This document shows, piece after piece, positions 2,338 through 15,039 of a stretch of DNA of 64,000 bases (its first letter is position 1; the number at the start of each line of letters is the position of its first letter). The DNA is from Nonomuraea sp. MG754425 (GTDB taxonomy: Bacteria; Actinomycetota; Actinomycetes; Streptosporangiales; Streptosporangiaceae). A program made the translations under genes and the position numbers. Where the stretch lies: the NCBI RefSeq assembly GCF_021699195.1, contig NZ_SSXE01000021.1, forward strand, positions 1-64,000, read 5' to 3'. The notes under the pieces were generated by a model. The model ran no database searches. It was not told the origin of the DNA and saw only the letters and a program-made list of their open reading frames with translations.

Positions 2338-2375
2338 GGCCGGGTGCCGCGTCTCCTGGGCGCGGCGACCCGGCC
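2338..2375. terminator. bidirectional hairpin terminator
   Basis: A 14-base left arm (2338-2351) pairs with 2361-2375 with one bulged G, around a 9-base loop. It lies between the catalase stop and the convergent S26 peptidase stop, so it can serve both transcripts. There is no clear T tract, which is usual in GC-rich actinomycetes. Confidence 0.6.
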
Positions 2376-2743
2376 TAGCGGGCGTCGTCCCGCGCGAGCG
2401 GCGGCGGCGCGGCGCGGACGGTCGCGAGGATGTCGCGGCGGTCGACCAGGCCGAGCTGACGGGAGTCCTGCGAGCGCGGGTTGTCCCCGGCCACCACGAC
2501 CTGACCGGCCGGCACGTGTGACACCTCCGGCAGCGCCGGGACGAGCCAGCCCGGCAGCGGGTCGCCGGCGACCGCGACGACCCGCTTGATCCGGTGCGGC
2601 AGCCGCTCGTCGGCCACCCGGAACACGATCACCTCGTGCCGCCGGGGGTCGCGGCGCAGCCGGCGCGCGAGCAGGCGGCGGCCGTCGCCGAAGGTGGGCG
2701 ACATGCTGTCGCCCCGCACGATCACCCTGATCCACCCGATCAT
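2375..2743 (-). CDS. small S26-family signal-peptidase-like protease
   Basis: 122 residues. The catalytic serine motif GDSMSPT (Ser13), the general-base region HRIKRVVAVAGD (Lys near residue 54) and the conserved GDN box mark the S24/S26 Ser-Lys dyad fold. Unlike LepB, it has no clear N-terminal membrane anchor; only a short WIRVIV stretch precedes the catalytic Ser. It is the last gene of the Cys-rich peptide operon and its ATG overlaps the ABC transporter stop (ATGA), so it is translationally coupled. A role in removing the leader of the peptide encoded at 5674-5832 is inferred from context. It could instead act on another substrate. Confidence 0.8.
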   Translation of the reverse strand: MIGWIRVIVRGDSMSPTFGDGRRLLARRLRRDPRRHEVIVFRVADERLPHRIKRVVAVAGDPLPGWLVPALPEVSHVPAGQVVVAGDNPRSQDSRQLGLVDRRDILATVRAAPPPLARDDAR

Positions 2744-4539
2744 CGCACCCTCGCGTCCTGGTAGCCGCCGGCCTGGAGGCGGAACAGCCGGGCGTACTCG
2801 CCGCCGGCGTCCATCAGCTCGTCGTGCCCGCCCCGTTCGGCGATCCGGCCGTCCACGAGCGTGGCGATCAGCTCCGCGTCGCGCAGCGCGGACATGCGGT
2901 GGGAGATCAGCAGCCGGGTACGTCCCGCGGCGTGCCGGCGCAGGATGCCGTGGACCCGGTGCTCGCCCTCGGCGTCCAGCCCGGAGGTCGGCTCGTCGAG
3001 CACGATCAGCCCGGCGTCGGCGCGCATCAGGCAGCGGGCCAGGGCCACCCGCTGCCACTGGCCGCCGGACAGCGTCACGCCGGCCCGTTCGGCGTCGTCG
3101 GTGTGCGTCCTGGACAGCACGGTGTCGTAGCCGCGGGGCAGCGCCGTCAGCGTCTCGTCGGCGTGGGCCGCCCGCGCGGCCTCGACGATCCGCGGCCGGT
3201 CGTCGAGGTGCGTGACCTGCCCGATGCCGATGTTCTCCGCCGCGGTCAGGTCGTAGGTCATGAACTCCTGGAACACCACGCCGATCCGCGCGCGCAGCGC
3301 CGTGACGTCCAGTTCGCGCAGGTCCACGCCGTCCCAGGTGATCGTGCCGCGCTGCGGGTCGTAGAACCGGCACAGCAGTTTCACCAGCGTGCTCTTGCCC
3401 GCGCCGTTGACGCCGGCGAGCCCCACGGCGGTTCCGGCGGGGATGGTCAGGTTCACCCCGCGCAGCACCCACGGGCCGTCGTCCGCGTAGCGGAACCAGA
3501 CGTCGCGCAGCTCGACGGCCGCCCGCGGCGGCGGCGTGCGGGTGCCGGCGGGCAGGTCGTCGCCGGTGCCGAGGACGTCGAGGTAGTGCCCGAACAGCCG
3601 CACCGCGCGGCCGGCGTCGCCGAGCTGGAGCACCACGCCGGTCAGCCCGGCCTGCACGCCGGTCACCGCGCCGAGGAACAGCACCAGGTCGCCGACCGAC
3701 GCGCCGCCGGCGACGACGTTGGTGGCGACCGCGACCGTGCCCGCCCCGGTGACGGCCGCGCCGAGCAGCGCGAGCCCGCTCTGCGCCAGCGTGCCCCGGC
3801 GGGCGACGGCCAGCCGGGCGCGCGAGACGGCCGCCAGCGAGCCGATCATCCGGGTGTGCAGCAGCGTGCCGAGGCCGAACAGCCGGATCTCCTTGGCGGC
3901 CCGCACGTCGGTGAGCAGCGCCCGGTAGAACAGGCGGCGACGGTCGGTGGCCACCCACGCCTCCTCGGTGGCCGCCTCGCGCCGCACGGTCGCCAGGCGG
4001 GCGAGCACGGCGGTCAGCGCCGACGCGAGCAGCAGCAGGGCCATCGGCGGCCACACCGCCAGCGCCGCCCCCGCGAAACCGCCGAGCAGCACCGCCGAGC
4101 GGACCAGTTCCTGCGCGAACTGCGTGACCGTACCGGGCGCCTCCTGCGCGGCCTGCTCGGCGAGCCGCAGCCGGTCGTGGAAGGCGGGATCCTCGATGTG
4201 CCGCAGCCCCGGCAGGGAGGCGACCCGTTCGAACAGCCGGCTCTCCACGGTCAGCGTGACCCGGTGGCGCACCACCTCGCCGAGGTGGCCGACCAGGTAG
4301 AGCAGCGCGCCGGCGAGCCCGCCCGCGAGCGCGGACGCGACGGCGAGGAAGGCCGCCCGGCCCGCGCTCGCCGCCCCCGAGGTGAGCTCGTCCACCAGCA
4401 GCATCGTCAGCCACGCCCCGGTCGCGGGCGCGACGCCGGCGAGCACGGTGAGCACCAGGGAGGTGCCGGCCGCCACCGGTGTGGCCCGGAACGGCAGCGC
4501 GAGCGCCGCCGCGCCCGTGCGGGCGGCGGATCGGGTCAT
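2740..4539 (-). CDS. ABC transporter, fused membrane and ATPase domains
   Basis: 599-residue half-transporter that would dimerise. A six-helix ABC membrane domain occupies about residues 15-310 and an ATPase domain about 335-599. Walker A GVNGAGKST is near 375-383, the signature LSGGQ near 490, and Walker B plus D-loop read LIVLDEPTSGLD. No C39 peptidase domain precedes the membrane part, so any leader must be removed by another enzyme, plausibly the adjacent S26 protein. The ATG overlaps the thioredoxin stop (ATGA) and its own stop overlaps the S26 start. Likely role: export of the operon's Cys-rich peptide (inference); the domain order is that of exporters. Confidence 0.88.
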   Translation of the reverse strand: MTRSAARTGAAALALPFRATPVAAGTSLVLTVLAGVAPATGAWLTMLLVDELTSGAASAGRAAFLAVASALAGGLAGALLYLVGHLGEVVRHRVTLTVESRLFERVASLPGLRHIEDPAFHDRLRLAEQAAQEAPGTVTQFAQELVRSAVLLGGFAGAALAVWPPMALLLLASALTAVLARLATVRREAATEEAWVATDRRRLFYRALLTDVRAAKEIRLFGLGTLLHTRMIGSLAAVSRARLAVARRGTLAQSGLALLGAAVTGAGTVAVATNVVAGGASVGDLVLFLGAVTGVQAGLTGVVLQLGDAGRAVRLFGHYLDVLGTGDDLPAGTRTPPPRAAVELRDVWFRYADDGPWVLRGVNLTIPAGTAVGLAGVNGAGKSTLVKLLCRFYDPQRGTITWDGVDLRELDVTALRARIGVVFQEFMTYDLTAAENIGIGQVTHLDDRPRIVEAARAAHADETLTALPRGYDTVLSRTHTDDAERAGVTLSGGQWQRVALARCLMRADAGLIVLDEPTSGLDAEGEHRVHGILRRHAAGRTRLLISHRMSALRDAELIATLVDGRIAERGGHDELMDAGGEYARLFRLQAGGYQDARVR

Positions 4540-5084
4540 GCCGCCTTCGCCGGGACGCCGGTCGCCGGCGCGAAGTCGTCGAGCCGGATGCCGGACGCGG
4601 TCACCACGCCGCGGTGCGTGTGCAGCAGCGTCGGGAACGCGACGACCTCGAACGCGGTCAGCACGGGATCGTCCACGCCGACGACCGCGACCCGGCCGAG
4701 CGCGCCGAGCTTGCCGGCCAGCCGCTCGGTGGCGTCGGGGGCCTCCGGGTCCCCCTGCACAACGGACACGAATCGGGCCTGCGGCGGGGCGGCGGCGAGG
4801 GCGTCGGACAACATCCGGCACGGCCCGCAGCCGACCTGGAAGAACCCGACCTGGACGGGGCCGTCGAGATCGGCCTCGGTGATCGTCGCGCCGCCGGTGT
4901 CGGTGACCGCGAACGGGCGCACGACCGTGCCGGGCCTCGGCACCTGCGGGCCGCCGGCGTGGCCCGCTCCGTGACCGCCGTGCGCGCTCATCTGCCGGAC
5001 CCTGGTGACCAGCGCGAACGTGAACAGCAGGTGCACCGCGACCACCAGGGCGAGCAGGACGACGGCGGTGGTGAGCAGGATCAA
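4536..5084 (-). CDS. membrane-anchored thioredoxin-like (TlpA/redoxin) protein
   Basis: 182 residues. One N-terminal transmembrane helix (about residues 1-27) is followed by a His/Gly-rich linker and a thioredoxin fold with the redox motif CGPC in VGCGPCRML. The topology places the redox domain outside the membrane. The TTG start overlaps the MauE stop (TTGA), which fits the hydrophobic segment being part of the protein; the first ATG inside would lose the helix. Thioredoxins of this kind pair with MauE/DoxX-type membrane proteins for disulfide exchange in methylamine dehydrogenase maturation. Here the client is probably the six-cysteine peptide of the same operon (inference). Confidence 0.82.
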   Translation of the reverse strand: MILLTTAVVLLALVVAVHLLFTFALVTRVRQMSAHGGHGAGHAGGPQVPRPGTVVRPFAVTDTGGATITEADLDGPVQVGFFQVGCGPCRMLSDALAAAPPQARFVSVVQGDPEAPDATERLAGKLGALGRVAVVGVDDPVLTAFEVVAFPTLLHTHRGVVTASGIRLDDFAPATGVPAKAA

Positions 5085-5596
5085 CGGTTTCTCCCGGCGG
5101 GAACGAGGAGGAACGCGACGTCCTCCCAGCGGGTCGTGAGCAGGCCGAGAAACGCCCCGGCGACCAGGCCGGCCAGCGTGGCCGGGGCGGCGGCGGGCCC
5201 GCCGCCGGCGAGCGCGCCCGCGGCGGCGACCGCGACCAGCAGGCCGTTGCGGACGAGGTGGCGCGGGCCGAGCAGCCCGCCGTCCGCGCCGAAGCACTGG
5301 CAGCGGACGGACTGCCGGGCGAGGACCGCGCGGCCGATCCCGGCGCAGAACACGAGCAGGAGCGCCGCCGCGAGGGCGTAACCGGCCAGCCGCGTGCCGG
5401 GAACGGCGAGCAGCACCACGGTGGCGGCCTCCCCCGCGACGACCGCCCCGGCCACCGGACCGGTGGGCAGCCATCGCGGCCCGATCGCCGCCACCGAGTC
5501 ACGGAACCCGGCGAACCCCTGCCGGGAGCGGGTCTTCCCCACGACCGCCGCGATGAAGACGACGGCGAGCAACACCCGGGCGAGCGGATCGAGCAC
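5081..5596 (-). CDS. MauE/DoxX-like redox-associated membrane protein
   Basis: 171 residues with four predicted hydrophobic helices. A cysteine pair in RCQCFGADG between helices is the motif of the MauE family, which supports disulfide formation in exported proteins. The GTG start at 5596 has GGAGG (complement of 5602-5606) at the right distance. It lies 77 bases downstream of the peptide gene, past a hairpin, and overlaps the thioredoxin gene. It probably relays electrons between the membrane and the thioredoxin during folding of the Cys-rich peptide. The family assignment is by motif and topology; the client is inferred. Confidence 0.82.
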   Translation of the reverse strand: MLDPLARVLLAVVFIAAVVGKTRSRQGFAGFRDSVAAIGPRWLPTGPVAGAVVAGEAATVVLLAVPGTRLAGYALAAALLLVFCAGIGRAVLARQSVRCQCFGADGGLLGPRHLVRNGLLVAVAAAGALAGGGPAAAPATLAGLVAGAFLGLLTTRWEDVAFLLVPAGRNR

Positions 5597-5620
5597 GATG
5601 GCCTCCGGACGGGGACGGCA

Positions 5621-5654
5621 GCCGGCGGGGCACGCGGTGGCCTCCCCCGCCGGC
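5621..5654 (-). terminator. intercistronic stem-loop after the Cys-rich peptide gene
   Basis: A perfect 10-base stem (5621-5630 with 5645-5654) and 14-base loop lie between the peptide stop and the MauE ribosome site. Partial terminators or 3'-protecting hairpins in this position are common after small structural-peptide genes and would give more peptide than machinery. Confidence 0.5.
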
Positions 5655-5673
5655 CGGTCCGGTCAGTGGGTGT

Positions 5674-5832
5674 TCAGCAGGAGGATGAGGCGGAGACGCA
5701 GCTTCCGTAGCAGTTGAAGCGCAGGCCCTTCTTGCAGCACTGGCCGTGCTCCGCCACGCACGCACCCGCCTCGACCTGCGGCAACACCATTCCGACGAGC
5801 CGCTCACCCGCTCGCTGCACGAGTCGCTTCAT
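5674..5832 (-). CDS. six-cysteine peptide precursor (candidate disulfide-rich RiPP-like peptide)
   Basis: 52 residues. A perfect AAGGAG ribosome site (complement of 5838-5843) lies 5 bases before the ATG. Residues 1-24 (MKRLVQRAGERLVGMVLPQV and EAGA) form a basic amphipathic leader ending in an Ala-Gly-Ala processing-like motif. The 28-residue C-terminal part carries all six cysteines, spaced C-x6-CC-x7-C-x3-C-x6-C, and ends in Cys. The CC pair and spacing recall knottin-type peptides. The leader lacks a proper Sec hydrophobic core. Downstream in the same operon are MauE-like, thioredoxin, ABC exporter and S26 genes, which together would oxidise, export and trim it. I do not recognise a named family; bioactivity is unknown. 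Confidence 0.8.
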   Translation of the reverse strand: MKRLVQRAGERLVGMVLPQVEAGACVAEHGQCCKKGLRFNCYGSCVSASSSC

Positions 5833-6048
5833 GTCAACTCCTTCCATGGCCAACAACGCGGACGCCGACCAGCGGATCGGTGATCCCCGGCGCCACGGCC
5901 ACGGCCTTTCGCCGTGCCGGACGGGCTCGCCAGGACTCCGTTCTCCCGCCTCCCCTGGTGGGTGCTGCCCAGGTTGCCGCGATCTCCGGGGAATGTCGTT
6001 AGCAGACAGTCCACACTTTCTTGACGACGTGTCGGCGCGGCCCGGAGG

Positions 6049-11141: not shown

Positions 11142-14100
11142 TCGGAGAATCATGCGTCTGCGCAGACTCGTCTCCCTGGCAGCCGCCGCCGGCCTGGCCG
11201 CCGGCGTGCTCACCGCGACACCGGCACGTGCCGCGCCCGAACCCCCCGCCCCGCAGAGCACCGCCACACAGACCACGGACTTACCGGCCGCGAACACCCA
11301 GGCCCCGAACGCCCAGGCCCCGAACACGCAGGCCACGAACACCCAGGCCGCGGAGACGCAGGCCACCGAGACGCCGGCCGCCCAGCCGCTGTCCGGCATC
11401 CCCGAGCCGGACTACACGCCGGGCGGCTGCAACCGCTCGGACCTGCCGGCCGAGCACGCCCGCTGCCTCCTGGAGATCTACACCCCCAAGGGGGCGCGGA
11501 TCGCGATGAAGGCCGACCAGCCCCGGCCCACCGCGCTCACGCCCGAGGACATCCGGTCGGCGTACAAGCTGCCCGACGGCGGGGAGGGGCAGACCGTCGC
11601 CGTCGTCGTCGCGCACGGCAACTCCGCCGCCGAGAGCGACCTGGCCGTCTACCGCTCCCAGTACGGCCTGCCCGAGTGCACCACCGCCAACGGCTGCTTC
11701 CGCAAGGTCGACCAGAAGGGCGGCACCGACTACCCGCCCGACGACGCGGGCTGGGCGGCGGAGAGCGCCCTCGACCTGGACGCCGTCTCCGCGGTCTGCC
11801 CACGCTGCAAGCTGCTGCTGGTGCAGGCGGACTCCGCGTCCGTCCCGGACCTCACCGCGGCGGTGGACACCGCCGTGGCCCTGGGCGCCAAGTTCGTCTC
11901 CAACTCCTACGGCATCCCGGGCGAGGCCGACGGCCAGCAGGCCTACGACAAGCACTACGACCACCCCGGCGTGGTGGTGACCGCGGCCACCGGCGACATC
12001 GGCAACATCTCAAGCTGGCCTGCCAGCAACCCCAACGTCGTCGCCGTCGGCGGGACGCGGCTGACCCGCGACGCGTCGGCCGCCCGCGGCTGGAGCGAGC
12101 GCCCGTGGACCGGCGGCGGATCGGGCTGCTCGCCGTACGAGCCGCGCCCGGCCTTCCAGGAGGGCATCGACACCAACTGCCCGAACGGGCGCGCGACCGC
12201 CGACATCTCGGCCGACGCCGACCCGGCCAGCGGCCTGTCGGTCTACCACTCCTTCTCCTCCGACGGCTACAGCGGCTGGCTGCAGTACGGCGGCACGAGC
12301 CTGTCCGCCCCGCTGGTCGCCGCGATGTACGCGCTGGCCGGCACCCCGACGCCGGGCACCTACCCGGTGACCTACCCCTACGCCGCCGCCGGGCTGCCCG
12401 ACCTGTTCGACATCACCGAGGGCAGCAACGGCGTCTGCGGCAACGTGCTGTGCGAGGCCGGCCCCGGCTGGGACGGGCCCACCGGCCTCGGCACCCCGAA
12501 CGGCCTCGGCGCGCTGACGTTCGGCCCCGCGGGCACCCTGGCGGGCACCCTCACCGACCAGGCCACCGGTGTTCCGATCGGCTCCGCCGACGTCTCGGCC
12601 CGCAACGTGGGCAACGGCAAGACCTACCGCTCCGGCACCGACGGCAAGGGCGGCTACACGCTGCTGGTTCCGGCCGGCACGTACGACCTGACCGCGACGG
12701 GCTTCGGCTACGCCAAGACGACCAGCACGGGCGTGGCGGTGCCGGTCGACCAGAAGGTGAGCGCCGACTTCCCGATGCGCGCGGTGCCCAGCCGGACCGT
12801 GTCCGGGACGATCACCGGCGACGGCGACCGCGCCTGGCCGCTGGCCGCGTCGATCGCCATCGACGGCTACCCGCACGGCAGGGTCAGGACCGACCCGTAC
12901 ACCGGCCGCTACTCGGTCGAGCTGCCCAAGGACGCCGACTACACCTTCCGCGTCTCCGCCGACTACCCCGGCTACACCACCAAGGTCCAGCGGGTCAGCG
13001 TCCCGGACACGGGGCCGGACACCGGCACGGACGCCTCCCTCTCGGTCGACCGGGGCGCCTGCCTGGCCCCCGGCTACGACTTCCCGAGCCGCGTCGACTT
13101 CGAGGGCTGGAGCGGCACCACGCCCCAGGACGGCTGGACGGTCTCCGGGTCCACGCCCGGCTGGGACTTCACCGGCAAGCCCCAGAACCTCATGGGCAGC
13201 GAGGGCAACTTCGCCGCCGCCTCCCCGTTCATCAACGGCGGCACGGCCCAGGACACCTACCTCACCTCACCGGCGATCGACCTGTCCGGCGAGAGCGCGC
13301 CGACGGTCCGGTTCAACCACCTCTTCATCGTCCCGGACGCCGAGAGCGTGGGCGAGGTCCAGCTCAGCCTGGACGGCGGCGCCACCTGGAGCACCGTCGG
13401 CGGGGCCGTCAACGGCACCAACGGGTCGACCTCCGTCGCGATCCCCCAGGCGGCGGGACGCTCCGACGCCCGGGTGCGCTTCCACTTCGCCAGTCACGGC
13501 TCCTCCGTCTGGCAGCTCGACGACATCACCGTCGGCAGTTGCGTCCCGCAGCCCGGCGGGCTCGTCAGCGGCGTCGTCACCGACGCCAACACCGGCGAGC
13601 CGGTGCCGGGCGCGAGCGTCGGCGGCTCCACGCCCAGCACGGCCGACGGCTGGTACTGGGCCTTCGCCGGGAAGGCGGGCAAGACGAAGCTGACCGCGTC
13701 GGCGGGCCGCTACGCGTCCTCGACCGGCACGGTGACCGTCGCCGCCGACAAGGTGACCCGCCGCGACTGGACGCTGCGGGCCGGCCGGCTCTCGGCCGAC
13801 ACGACGGGCGTCTCGTTCGACGCCACCCTGGGCCGCTCGGCCGGCACCCGCAAGGTCCGGCTCACCAACACCGGCGGCGCGCCGCTGAAGGTGACGATCG
13901 GCGAGCACAGCGCGCCGGCCGGGTCCGGCGGCGGAGCGAGCGACGCCGGCTGGACCGACATCGCCGACTATCCGCTCCCGATCGCGAACAACGCGGCGGG
14001 CAGCCACGCCGGCAAGCTCTATTCGGCCGGCGGCTGGACGACGGGCGGCCGGCGGGTCTCGGCCGGCTACGTCTACGACCCGGCGACCGGCGCCTGGAGC

Positions 14101-15039
14101 CCGATCGCCGACCTGCCCCAGGCCCTGCTCGGCTCCGCCGGGGCCTTCCTCGACGGCGTGTTCTACGTCTTCGGCGGCGAGGACGTAGAACACCGGCCGG
14201 TTGCCACGGCGTACGCCTACCACCCGGACAAGAACGCCTGGACCCGGCTCGCCGACCTGCCGACGACGCTCAGCAAGGCGACCGCCGCCGTGCTCGGCAA
14301 GCACCTGTACGTCGTGGGCGGCTGCGTGGTGGACTGCGGCACGGAGACGTCGGCGGCGGTCTACCGCTACGACCCGCGGCGCGACACCTGGACCCGCGTC
14401 GCCGACTACCCGTCGCGGGCGAACAACCCGGCCTGCGCCGGCCTCGGCGACCAGATCATCTGCGCCGGCGGGCGGGACAGGTTCGTCAACACCGGGAGCG
14501 GGCCCAGCTTCCGCGAGCTGACCTCGACCTACGCCTACAACCCGCGGCGCAACGCCTGGACGGCGCTGGCGGACATGCCCTACCAGAACTACGGGATGGC
14601 CTTCAGCGGGGCCAACGGCAGGCTGCAGGTCGCCGGCGGCATCAGCAACCTGGCCCCCACCGGCCGGGCAGCGGAGTTCGACCCGGTCACCGGCACGTGG
14701 CGGGACCTCCCGGACATGCGGCAGGCCGTGGACGTCCCCGGCAGCGGCTGCGGCCTGTACAAGATCGGCGGAACCCCCTCGTGGAACCCGGCGGCCGTCG
14801 CCGAGGTGCTGCCCGGCTACGACTCGTGCGGCGGGGACGACGTCGCCTGGCTGAAGGAGAACCACACCGAACTCGAACTCGCGCCGGGCCGCTCGGCGAC
14901 GCTGACGGTCAAGGCCGACGCCCACGTCAGCGCGGCCGGCCGGTACACCGCCAACCTGTCGCTCGACACCGACTCGCCGTACCGGCACGACCCGATCGAC
15001 GTGGTCATGCGGGTGAAGGCGTCCGGGAAGGGCCACTGA
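11122..15039 (+). CDS. secreted S53 (sedolisin-like) serine protease with CnaB-like and Kelch domains
   Basis: Up to 1305 residues. A Sec signal peptide ends TPARA (near residue 39 from this start), followed by a low-complexity linker of repeated TQA/NTQAPN units. The S53 catalytic domain covers about 145-430: Glu214 and Asp218 in the ExxxD motif, Asp292 in ATGDIG, and Ser393 in GGTSLSAP. Then come carboxypeptidase-regulatory-like beta-sandwiches, a jelly-roll segment (about 660-800), and Kelch-type repeats (about 960-1220) with a last beta domain. ATG 11122 has GGAG 7 bases upstream. ATG 11152, with GGAG 4 bases upstream, would give a tidier signal peptide (MRLRRLVSLAAAAG) and avoid the overlap with the preceding ORF. 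Extracellular proteolysis is the likely role. Confidence 0.88.
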   Translation: MAMNRSDRRIMRLRRLVSLAAAAGLAAGVLTATPARAAPEPPAPQSTATQTTDLPAANTQAPNAQAPNTQATNTQAAETQATETPAAQPLSGIPEPDYTPGGCNRSDLPAEHARCLLEIYTPKGARIAMKADQPRPTALTPEDIRSAYKLPDGGEGQTVAVVVAHGNSAAESDLAVYRSQYGLPECTTANGCFRKVDQKGGTDYPPDDAGWAAESALDLDAVSAVCPRCKLLLVQADSASVPDLTAAVDTAVALGAKFVSNSYGIPGEADGQQAYDKHYDHPGVVVTAATGDIGNISSWPASNPNVVAVGGTRLTRDASAARGWSERPWTGGGSGCSPYEPRPAFQEGIDTNCPNGRATADISADADPASGLSVYHSFSSDGYSGWLQYGGTSLSAPLVAAMYALAGTPTPGTYPVTYPYAAAGLPDLFDITEGSNGVCGNVLCEAGPGWDGPTGLGTPNGLGALTFGPAGTLAGTLTDQATGVPIGSADVSARNVGNGKTYRSGTDGKGGYTLLVPAGTYDLTATGFGYAKTTSTGVAVPVDQKVSADFPMRAVPSRTVSGTITGDGDRAWPLAASIAIDGYPHGRVRTDPYTGRYSVELPKDADYTFRVSADYPGYTTKVQRVSVPDTGPDTGTDASLSVDRGACLAPGYDFPSRVDFEGWSGTTPQDGWTVSGSTPGWDFTGKPQNLMGSEGNFAAASPFINGGTAQDTYLTSPAIDLSGESAPTVRFNHLFIVPDAESVGEVQLSLDGGATWSTVGGAVNGTNGSTSVAIPQAAGRSDARVRFHFASHGSSVWQLDDITVGSCVPQPGGLVSGVVTDANTGEPVPGASVGGSTPSTADGWYWAFAGKAGKTKLTASAGRYASSTGTVTVAADKVTRRDWTLRAGRLSADTTGVSFDATLGRSAGTRKVRLTNTGGAPLKVTIGEHSAPAGSGGGASDAGWTDIADYPLPIANNAAGSHAGKLYSAGGWTTGGRRVSAGYVYDPATGAWSPIADLPQALLGSAGAFLDGVFYVFGGEDVEHRPVATAYAYHPDKNAWTRLADLPTTLSKATAAVLGKHLYVVGGCVVDCGTETSAAVYRYDPRRDTWTRVADYPSRANNPACAGLGDQIICAGGRDRFVNTGSGPSFRELTSTYAYNPRRNAWTALADMPYQNYGMAFSGANGRLQVAGGISNLAPTGRAAEFDPVTGTWRDLPDMRQAVDVPGSGCGLYKIGGTPSWNPAAVAEVLPGYDSCGGDDVAWLKENHTELELAPGRSATLTVKADAHVSAAGRYTANLSLDTDSPYRHDPIDVVMRVKASGKGH

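Follow-up and report, generated by a model that had tools for sequence, protein, structure and literature searches.

The operon described here occupies positions 2375-5832 on the minus strand of a 64,000-nucleotide stretch of DNA from the soil actinomycete Nonomuraea sp. MG754425 (contig NZ_SSXE01000021.1; hereafter the window) and encodes a small six-cysteine peptide, a MauE membrane protein, a thioredoxin-like protein with a CGPC motif, an ABC exporter and an S26 peptidase. The closest account in print is that of decRiPPter (2020), which listed three Streptomyces families of candidate ribosomally synthesized and post-translationally modified peptides, each with a mauE homologue (in one family also mauD) next to a cysteine-rich candidate precursor, and argued that MauE modifies the precursors (PMC7794033). 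Transporter and peptidase genes were included in its filters, and its precursors contain at least eight cysteines versus six in the window, a comparison made by description only (PMC7794033). The general idea is already in print there as a prediction; the passages on these families present no leader motif, S26 peptidase, thioredoxin, distribution or product (PMC7794033). Beyond decRiPPter, the papers listed by searches of an open-access collection, which lacks most subscription papers, include none on the system, and they yielded no naming, leader motif, description of the S26 peptidase or thioredoxin, or product. The original prediction that the operon belongs to no named class is only partly right, because decRiPPter had listed its three MauE candidate families (PMC7794033).

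Several better characterized systems share single traits with the operon. Class I lasso peptide clusters (sviceucin, aborycin, MS-271 and humidimycin) likewise combine a DoxX-family protein, a CxxC/DsbA-type protein, ABC transporters and a disulfide-containing peptide, but encode their own lasso cyclase and B1/B2 proteins, which were not found here; no S26 peptidase is among the rows covered of the aborycin gene table (PMC6409603). The C39 peptidase-containing exporters (PCATs) also cut a leader at a short motif in conjunction with an ABC exporter (PMC6363468), yet by means of a C39 domain and a double-glycine motif, in contrast to the separate S26 peptidase and A-x-A motif of the present system (AGA at the end of the window leader). 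The actifensins of Actinomyces resemble it as actinobacterial peptides with a leader, a defensin-like core and ABC transporter genes (PMC6989792); their operon differs in a subtilisin-like protease, a hydrolase and a LuxR regulator, and the words thioredoxin, signal peptidase and S26 do not occur in the main text (PMC6989792). The methylamine dehydrogenase operon, finally, shares the PF07291 membrane protein MauE. Its partner MauD is an anchored thioredoxin-like protein, and the system serves methylamine dehydrogenase whereas a small peptide is the proposed substrate here.

We consider it probable that the operon is a dedicated one which makes, trims and exports a small three-disulfide peptide, with maturation at the cytoplasmic face of the membrane. 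Gene content, conservation, genomic association, a leader motif, even cysteine numbers and purifying selection are the observed basis of this proposal.

The operon and its close relatives

The coordinates, strand and gene composition given by the original prediction hold. The operon sits on a 67.6-kb contig (C114) of an 11.3-Mb genome and comprises the following features, all on the minus strand:

5674-5832, minus: precursor peptide, 52 residues (homologues, dN<dS)
5832-5761, minus: leader, residues 1-24 (cleavage site predicted from A-G-A before C25)
5760-5677, minus: predicted core C25-C52 (cleavage site likewise predicted)
5838-5843, minus: ribosome binding site AAGGAG (a GGA(A)AGGA stretch is kept in five aligned upstream regions)
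5081-5596, minus: MauE, membrane protein of 171 residues with a CxCF motif (C99, C101; PF07291, 2e-20)
4536-5084, minus: membrane-anchored thioredoxin-like protein, CGPC, 182 residues (CxxC and family profile)
2740-4539, minus: ABC exporter, 599 residues, membrane and ATPase parts in a single chain (PF00005)
2375-2743, minus: S26 peptidase, 122 residues, Ser13 and Lys53, without membrane anchor (PF10502, TIGR02227)
5833-6048, minus: upstream intergenic stretch, presumed to bear the promoter

Translation starts at ATG 5832 (peptide), GTG 5596 (MauE), TTG 5084 (thioredoxin-like protein), ATG 4539 (exporter) and ATG 2743 (S26 peptidase). As had been claimed, stop and start codons overlap at the three junctions between the last four genes (TTGA, ATGA and ATGA), and 77 bases separate the peptide stop from MauE. 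The ATG at 5832 was preferred to the in-frame TTG at 5856 because of the AAGGAG at 5843-5838, in agreement with the excellent ribosome site predicted, and because homologues start there. No sigma-70 promoter consensus was found in the upstream stretch 5833-6048, and no terminator pattern was found.

Counting that of the window, four of the 54 genus genomes contain the peptide, at five loci, and all five genes recur in the same order at the four other loci, which belong to three other genomes. There, sequence identity amounts to 72-82% for the S26 peptidase, 75-80% for the thioredoxin-like protein, 81-86% for MauE, 60-81% for the peptide and 83-89% for the exporter over its longer pieces. The six cysteines are invariant among these close peptides, and the catalase and CMD genes flanking the operon in the window have no match in the 14-kb stretches around the four other loci. 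Outside the genus, two Lentzea strains (order Pseudonocardiales) show the same gene order and a nearly identical six-cysteine core. Purifying selection acts on the peptide: seven close copies were compared in 21 pairs, and the nonsynonymous rate (dN) falls below the synonymous rate (dS) in every pair (dN/dS 0.27-0.85). In one genome (G007) both exporter copies (L014:5460-6817 and L017:5400-6831) have two internal gaps of about 170-225 bases each at nearly equal places, one of which extends as far as the Walker A region or into it; this may reflect a shared assembly dropout or true decay.

The genome of the window contains a second full set on contig C435 (L035:7032-10373, peptide at L035:10143-10373) and a third locus on C622 (L221:7182-8530) with the order thioredoxin, S26 peptidase, peptide, where no MauE or exporter match was found within the 16 kb fetched. 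The six-cysteine cores of these two peptides are unlike that of the window.

Association of the peptide with MauE loci

At E <= 0.01, a search profile built from the five genus peptides finds matches in 21 of the 298 family genomes searched. Surroundings were covered for 17 of the 22 profile places, those left out being five weak matches (E > 0.001) inside frames of 263-781 residues, and 11 of 12 distant peptide places adjoin at least two module genes. The exception (L042:7711-7956), likely a remnant, lacks any module gene within 16 kb; its leader stands alone, and a degenerate, repetitive tail replaces the last part of the core.

MauE itself is far more widespread. At E <= 1e-20 its profile finds a match in 185 of the 315 family genomes searched, often several per genome, and these genomes represent 35 of the 62 genera; in the wider phylum matches are sparse (31 of 396 genomes at E <= 1e-10). 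Sixty MauE loci were hand-picked down this list without sight of the peptides, mostly one per genome and not at random, and their surroundings were evaluated with a leader score of 24 positions built from 15 leaders (threshold 12 bits). MauE, thioredoxin-like protein, exporter and S26 peptidase are all present at 50 of these loci. A small cysteine-rich precursor, the lack of which beside homologous sets would have spoken against the original prediction, was found at 52: 45 by the leader score and seven, among the remaining 15 loci, by looser rules accepting cysteine-rich small open reading frames (ORFs) with a shorter or offset leader, four of them with a leader score below zero. In 464 kb of control DNA (20 arbitrary 20-kb stretches and the 64-kb window) only the window's own peptide exceeds 8 bits, and the looser rules accept one spurious ORF there versus seven in the 237 kb of the 15 loci.

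A set of 21 named loci, overlapping with the 60 (e.g. L092/L139 and L096/L126) and including the training loci L081 and L100, gave a similar picture. Fifteen pass the leader score, L088, L091 and L095 were recovered by the looser rules, and L084, L085 and L101 have no detectable peptide; L084 is cut by a contig end, with a known peptide about 19 kb off on its contig. The 18 peptide-bearing loci include members of Streptomyces, Amycolatopsis, Lentzea, Microbispora, Streptosporangium, Planomonospora, Nonomuraea and Actinomadura. Almost all peptides (71 of 73) lie at most 600 bases from a module gene, and 69 share the strand of the nearest one. Tandem precursor genes with similar leaders and differing cores occur at L149:8598-9300, L157:4501-5150 and L089:11522-11990.

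Conservation, synteny and the peptide-blind association thus support the claim of a system dedicated to making and exporting a ribosomal peptide rich in disulfides. They also bear on the trivial explanation that the six-cysteine frame is a chance ORF beside a redox and export operon, as its small size and the lack of a Pfam or NCBIfam family could suggest. This explanation is refuted by the conservation, namely the uniform excess of dS over dN, the synteny and the association with its controls, and we assign it a negligible probability.

Leader, core and cysteines of the precursor

The cysteine pattern proposed for the peptide was confirmed as C25-x6-C32C33-x7-C41-x3-C45-x6-C52. Throughout the family, variable cores follow a common leader motif, DRLL..(V)P..A.A, and the leader ends in A-x-A directly or some residues ahead of the first cysteine. 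The A.A element is found at residues 19-30 in 63 of 63 representatives, a count which is partly circular because the leader score was trained on that motif. A low-confidence structure model of the window peptide (mean pLDDT 59) contains a leader helix at residues 3-16, and the hydrophobic moment marks the leader as amphipathic in 49 of 73 homologues (z > 1.64). The profile libraries searched do not accommodate these peptides: the window peptide has no Pfam or NCBIfam match up to E 1, ten distant peptides have no NCBIfam match up to E 5, and two of the ten show weak and unrelated Pfam matches below cut-off (E 0.02 and 0.07). A PDB profile search with the peptide gave a best E of 0.098, Foldseek with the model, in which defensin and knottin folds were checked, returned no match below E 4, and the viral contigs searched contain no relative.

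Intramolecular disulfides would predict even cysteine numbers, and 85 of 87 peptides (range 4 to 12 cysteines) comply. After clustering of the cores at 40% identity, 44 of 46 are even, compared to 165 of 251 control ORFs with at least four cysteines (p 1.3e-6).

Contig C114 is devoid of matches to MNIO (one match in the genome, on C523), radical SAM (23 in the genome), YcaO (four) and LanC-like (four) proteins. Lasso cyclase and B proteins have no Pfam match among the operon proteins and six flanking ORFs, of which 11676-15036 was probably scanned in the wrong frame; the flanking ORFs include no tailoring enzyme, and neither they nor the operon contain a methylamine dehydrogenase gene. The predicted absence of lanthipeptide, lasso and radical-SAM enzymes is borne out within this range. 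The translation of window:11000-15039 suggests a large secreted protein of the sedolisin type that contains kelch-like repeats.

A small cysteine-rich peptide might also bind metal in the manner of a metallothionein or metallophore, MauE and the thioredoxin-like protein keeping the cysteines reduced until the exported peptide meets its metal; DoxX genes are also found with MNIO metallophore clusters (the word DoxX occurs in PMC12668002 and PMC13419390). We regard this possibility as improbable, since the contig carries no MNIO gene and the hypervariable cores, shifting cysteine spacing and nearly always even cysteine numbers fit disulfides better, although metal sites can be even too.

MauE and the thioredoxin-like protein

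MauE matches PF07291 with 73.8 bits against a cut-off of 27 (E 2e-20). Its CxCF motif is invariant in 13 and in 21 aligned sequences and reads CxCFS in L049; apparent in-frame stops in MauE matches were checked in eight cases and proved to be ordinary ones close to the end of the gene. MauE has no PDB match up to E 1 by profile and none below E 0.97 by Foldseek. With human NACHO/TMEM35A, which acts in receptor assembly, its model (window:5081-5596) gives a VIA-align Z of 13.5 and a root-mean-square deviation of 2.2 over 116 residues, well ahead of the next row at Z 8.3; a fold link is possible, although helical bundles can reach Z values of about 13 by chance. Kinship to VKOR is not claimed because VKOR-like rows (Z 5.4-5.8) stand among unrelated helical bundles.

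The thioredoxin assignment of the original prediction stands in a modified form. The CGPC motif is present, its CxxC is invariant in the aligned members, and the family profile matches thioredoxin-family and ResA structures with E of about 1e-9 to 1e-10, but the window protein alone stays below the cut-off of PF00085 (E 0.061). By its sequence, the protein belongs to the thioredoxin-like fold of the ResA/TlpA type. The pair of MauE and thioredoxin-like protein is present as predicted; its role as oxidation genes is to be worded conditionally because the thioredoxin of class I lasso clusters is dispensable for disulfides and affects export (PMC9266682). This DoxX/thioredoxin pair is the nearest experimental precedent found and, by analogy, such a pair may serve export or yield above disulfides (PMC9266682, PMC6409603).

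Exporter, peptidase and membrane topology

The ABC exporter is identified by its ATPase part (PF00005, E 1.1e-31), the membrane part remaining below cut-off (PF00664, E 1.7e-4), and the profile scan of the operon proteins gave no match for a C39 domain on it. The S26 peptidase scores above the cut-offs of PF10502 (E 5.3e-17, 62.7 bits versus 22.9) and TIGR02227, and Ser13 and Lys53 are invariant in 14 sequences. An N-terminal membrane anchor is absent from the S26 peptidases of the window, the four sister loci and both Lentzea strains. The window protein also has a weak match, below cut-off at E 1.3e-7, to the profile of a cytoplasmic enzyme, the protease that matures nickel superoxide dismutase (TIGR02754).

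The order implied by the original prediction was a classical one: the leader would still be attached at export, and S26 peptidase, thioredoxin and MauE would act outside like signal peptidase I and DsbA/DsbB-type enzymes. In its favour, A-x-A is the motif of the extracytoplasmic signal peptidase I, one N-terminal membrane helix is found in 71 of 76 S26 homologues, disulfides usually form outside and MauE/MauD are thought to serve a periplasmic enzyme (PMC7794033). The charge distribution points in the opposite direction. Arginines follow the anchor helix in both S26 peptidases and thioredoxin-like proteins, and the net charge just after it is positive in 68 of 71 of the former and 72 of 75 of the latter. 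The positive charge precedes the helix, by contrast, in three proteins of the same genome, namely two signal peptidases I and a ResA-like lipoprotein. In MauE, loops 1 and 3, the latter with the CxC motif, have mean net charges of +3.8 and +4.8 and alternate with neutral loops. The predicted topology suggests a cytoplasmic position for the thioredoxin and S26 domains and for the loop of MauE that carries CxC, and the window-type S26 peptidase with neither helix nor signal peptide is equally at odds with action outside. Based on the charge patterns and the anchorless S26 peptidases, leader removal and redox handling would therefore take place at the cytoplasmic face, before or during export, and we consider the classical order rather unlikely.

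Proposed pathway

Consistent with these data we propose the following scenario for maturation at the cytoplasmic face. The leader of the 52-residue precursor, probably an amphipathic helix, would be read by the machinery, and the S26 peptidase would cut after A22-G-A24 to liberate the 28-residue core C25-C52, with a predicted monoisotopic mass of 2926.21 in the reduced form and 2920.16 with three disulfides. MauE and the thioredoxin-like protein would set the thiol state of the six cysteines and thereby yield the three disulfides, the electrons most likely passing from the peptide thiols via CGPC and the CxC motif of MauE to the respiratory chain. Leader cutting and thiol control probably proceed at the inner face as in the C39 peptidase-exporters, but with a separate S26 peptidase, and the ABC exporter would secrete the peptide. 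Cleavage site, disulfides, electron path and membrane side are inferred.

Several points weigh against this scenario. The product, its mass and its disulfides are predictions, and no immunity gene is evident. At ten of the 60 MauE loci at least one of thioredoxin-like protein, exporter and S26 peptidase is missing from the fetched stretch, and eight (L109, L113, L119, L125, L127, L135, L140 and L168) have no detectable peptide. Two peptides have odd cysteine numbers (5 and 9), and the window's own leader is not significantly amphipathic, 8.65% of shuffles reaching its moment. Concerning topology, the positive-inside rule is a rule of thumb, applied to helix limits set by hand or hydropathy window; the MauE C-terminal tail, inside by the same topology, is slightly negative (mean -0.8); and MauD, taken to act in the periplasm, has a similar N-terminus. 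The lasso thioredoxin discussed above belongs here as well.

As to the use of the peptide, competition or defence in the manner of a bacteriocin is by our estimate the likeliest, with a somewhat better than even chance. The peptide might instead be made and exported as proposed but act as a signal or protease inhibitor, with which the lack of an evident immunity gene would agree; small disulfide-rich inhibitors also rank first among the Foldseek matches of the peptide model, though with E above 4 these matches are not significant. Tandem precursors, variable cores and scattered occurrence rather resemble competition peptides, a likeness which is not decisive, and a signal or inhibitor appears to us the less plausible use.

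Biological implications

The operon is one member of a large family of such systems that has received little description. More tentatively, and with less than even confidence, we envisage an unnamed large class of actinomycete peptides with disulfides as their sole modification, in which inward-facing MauE, thioredoxin-like protein and S26 peptidase would oxidise and trim the precursor and the ABC transporter would export it. Such a class would be a serine-peptidase counterpart of the C39 peptidase-exporters, with disulfides made on an unexpected side of the membrane. As most of the 60 sampled MauE copies adjoin a cysteine-rich peptide with a core of its own, the family constitutes a large reservoir of disulfide-stabilised peptides, and one that is unnamed by profile libraries, since for the 11 peptides scanned NCBIfam gave no match and Pfam none above cut-off. 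The leader motif together with the four-gene signature makes the class searchable, and the predicted inward-facing topology raises the question of where bacteria can make disulfides.

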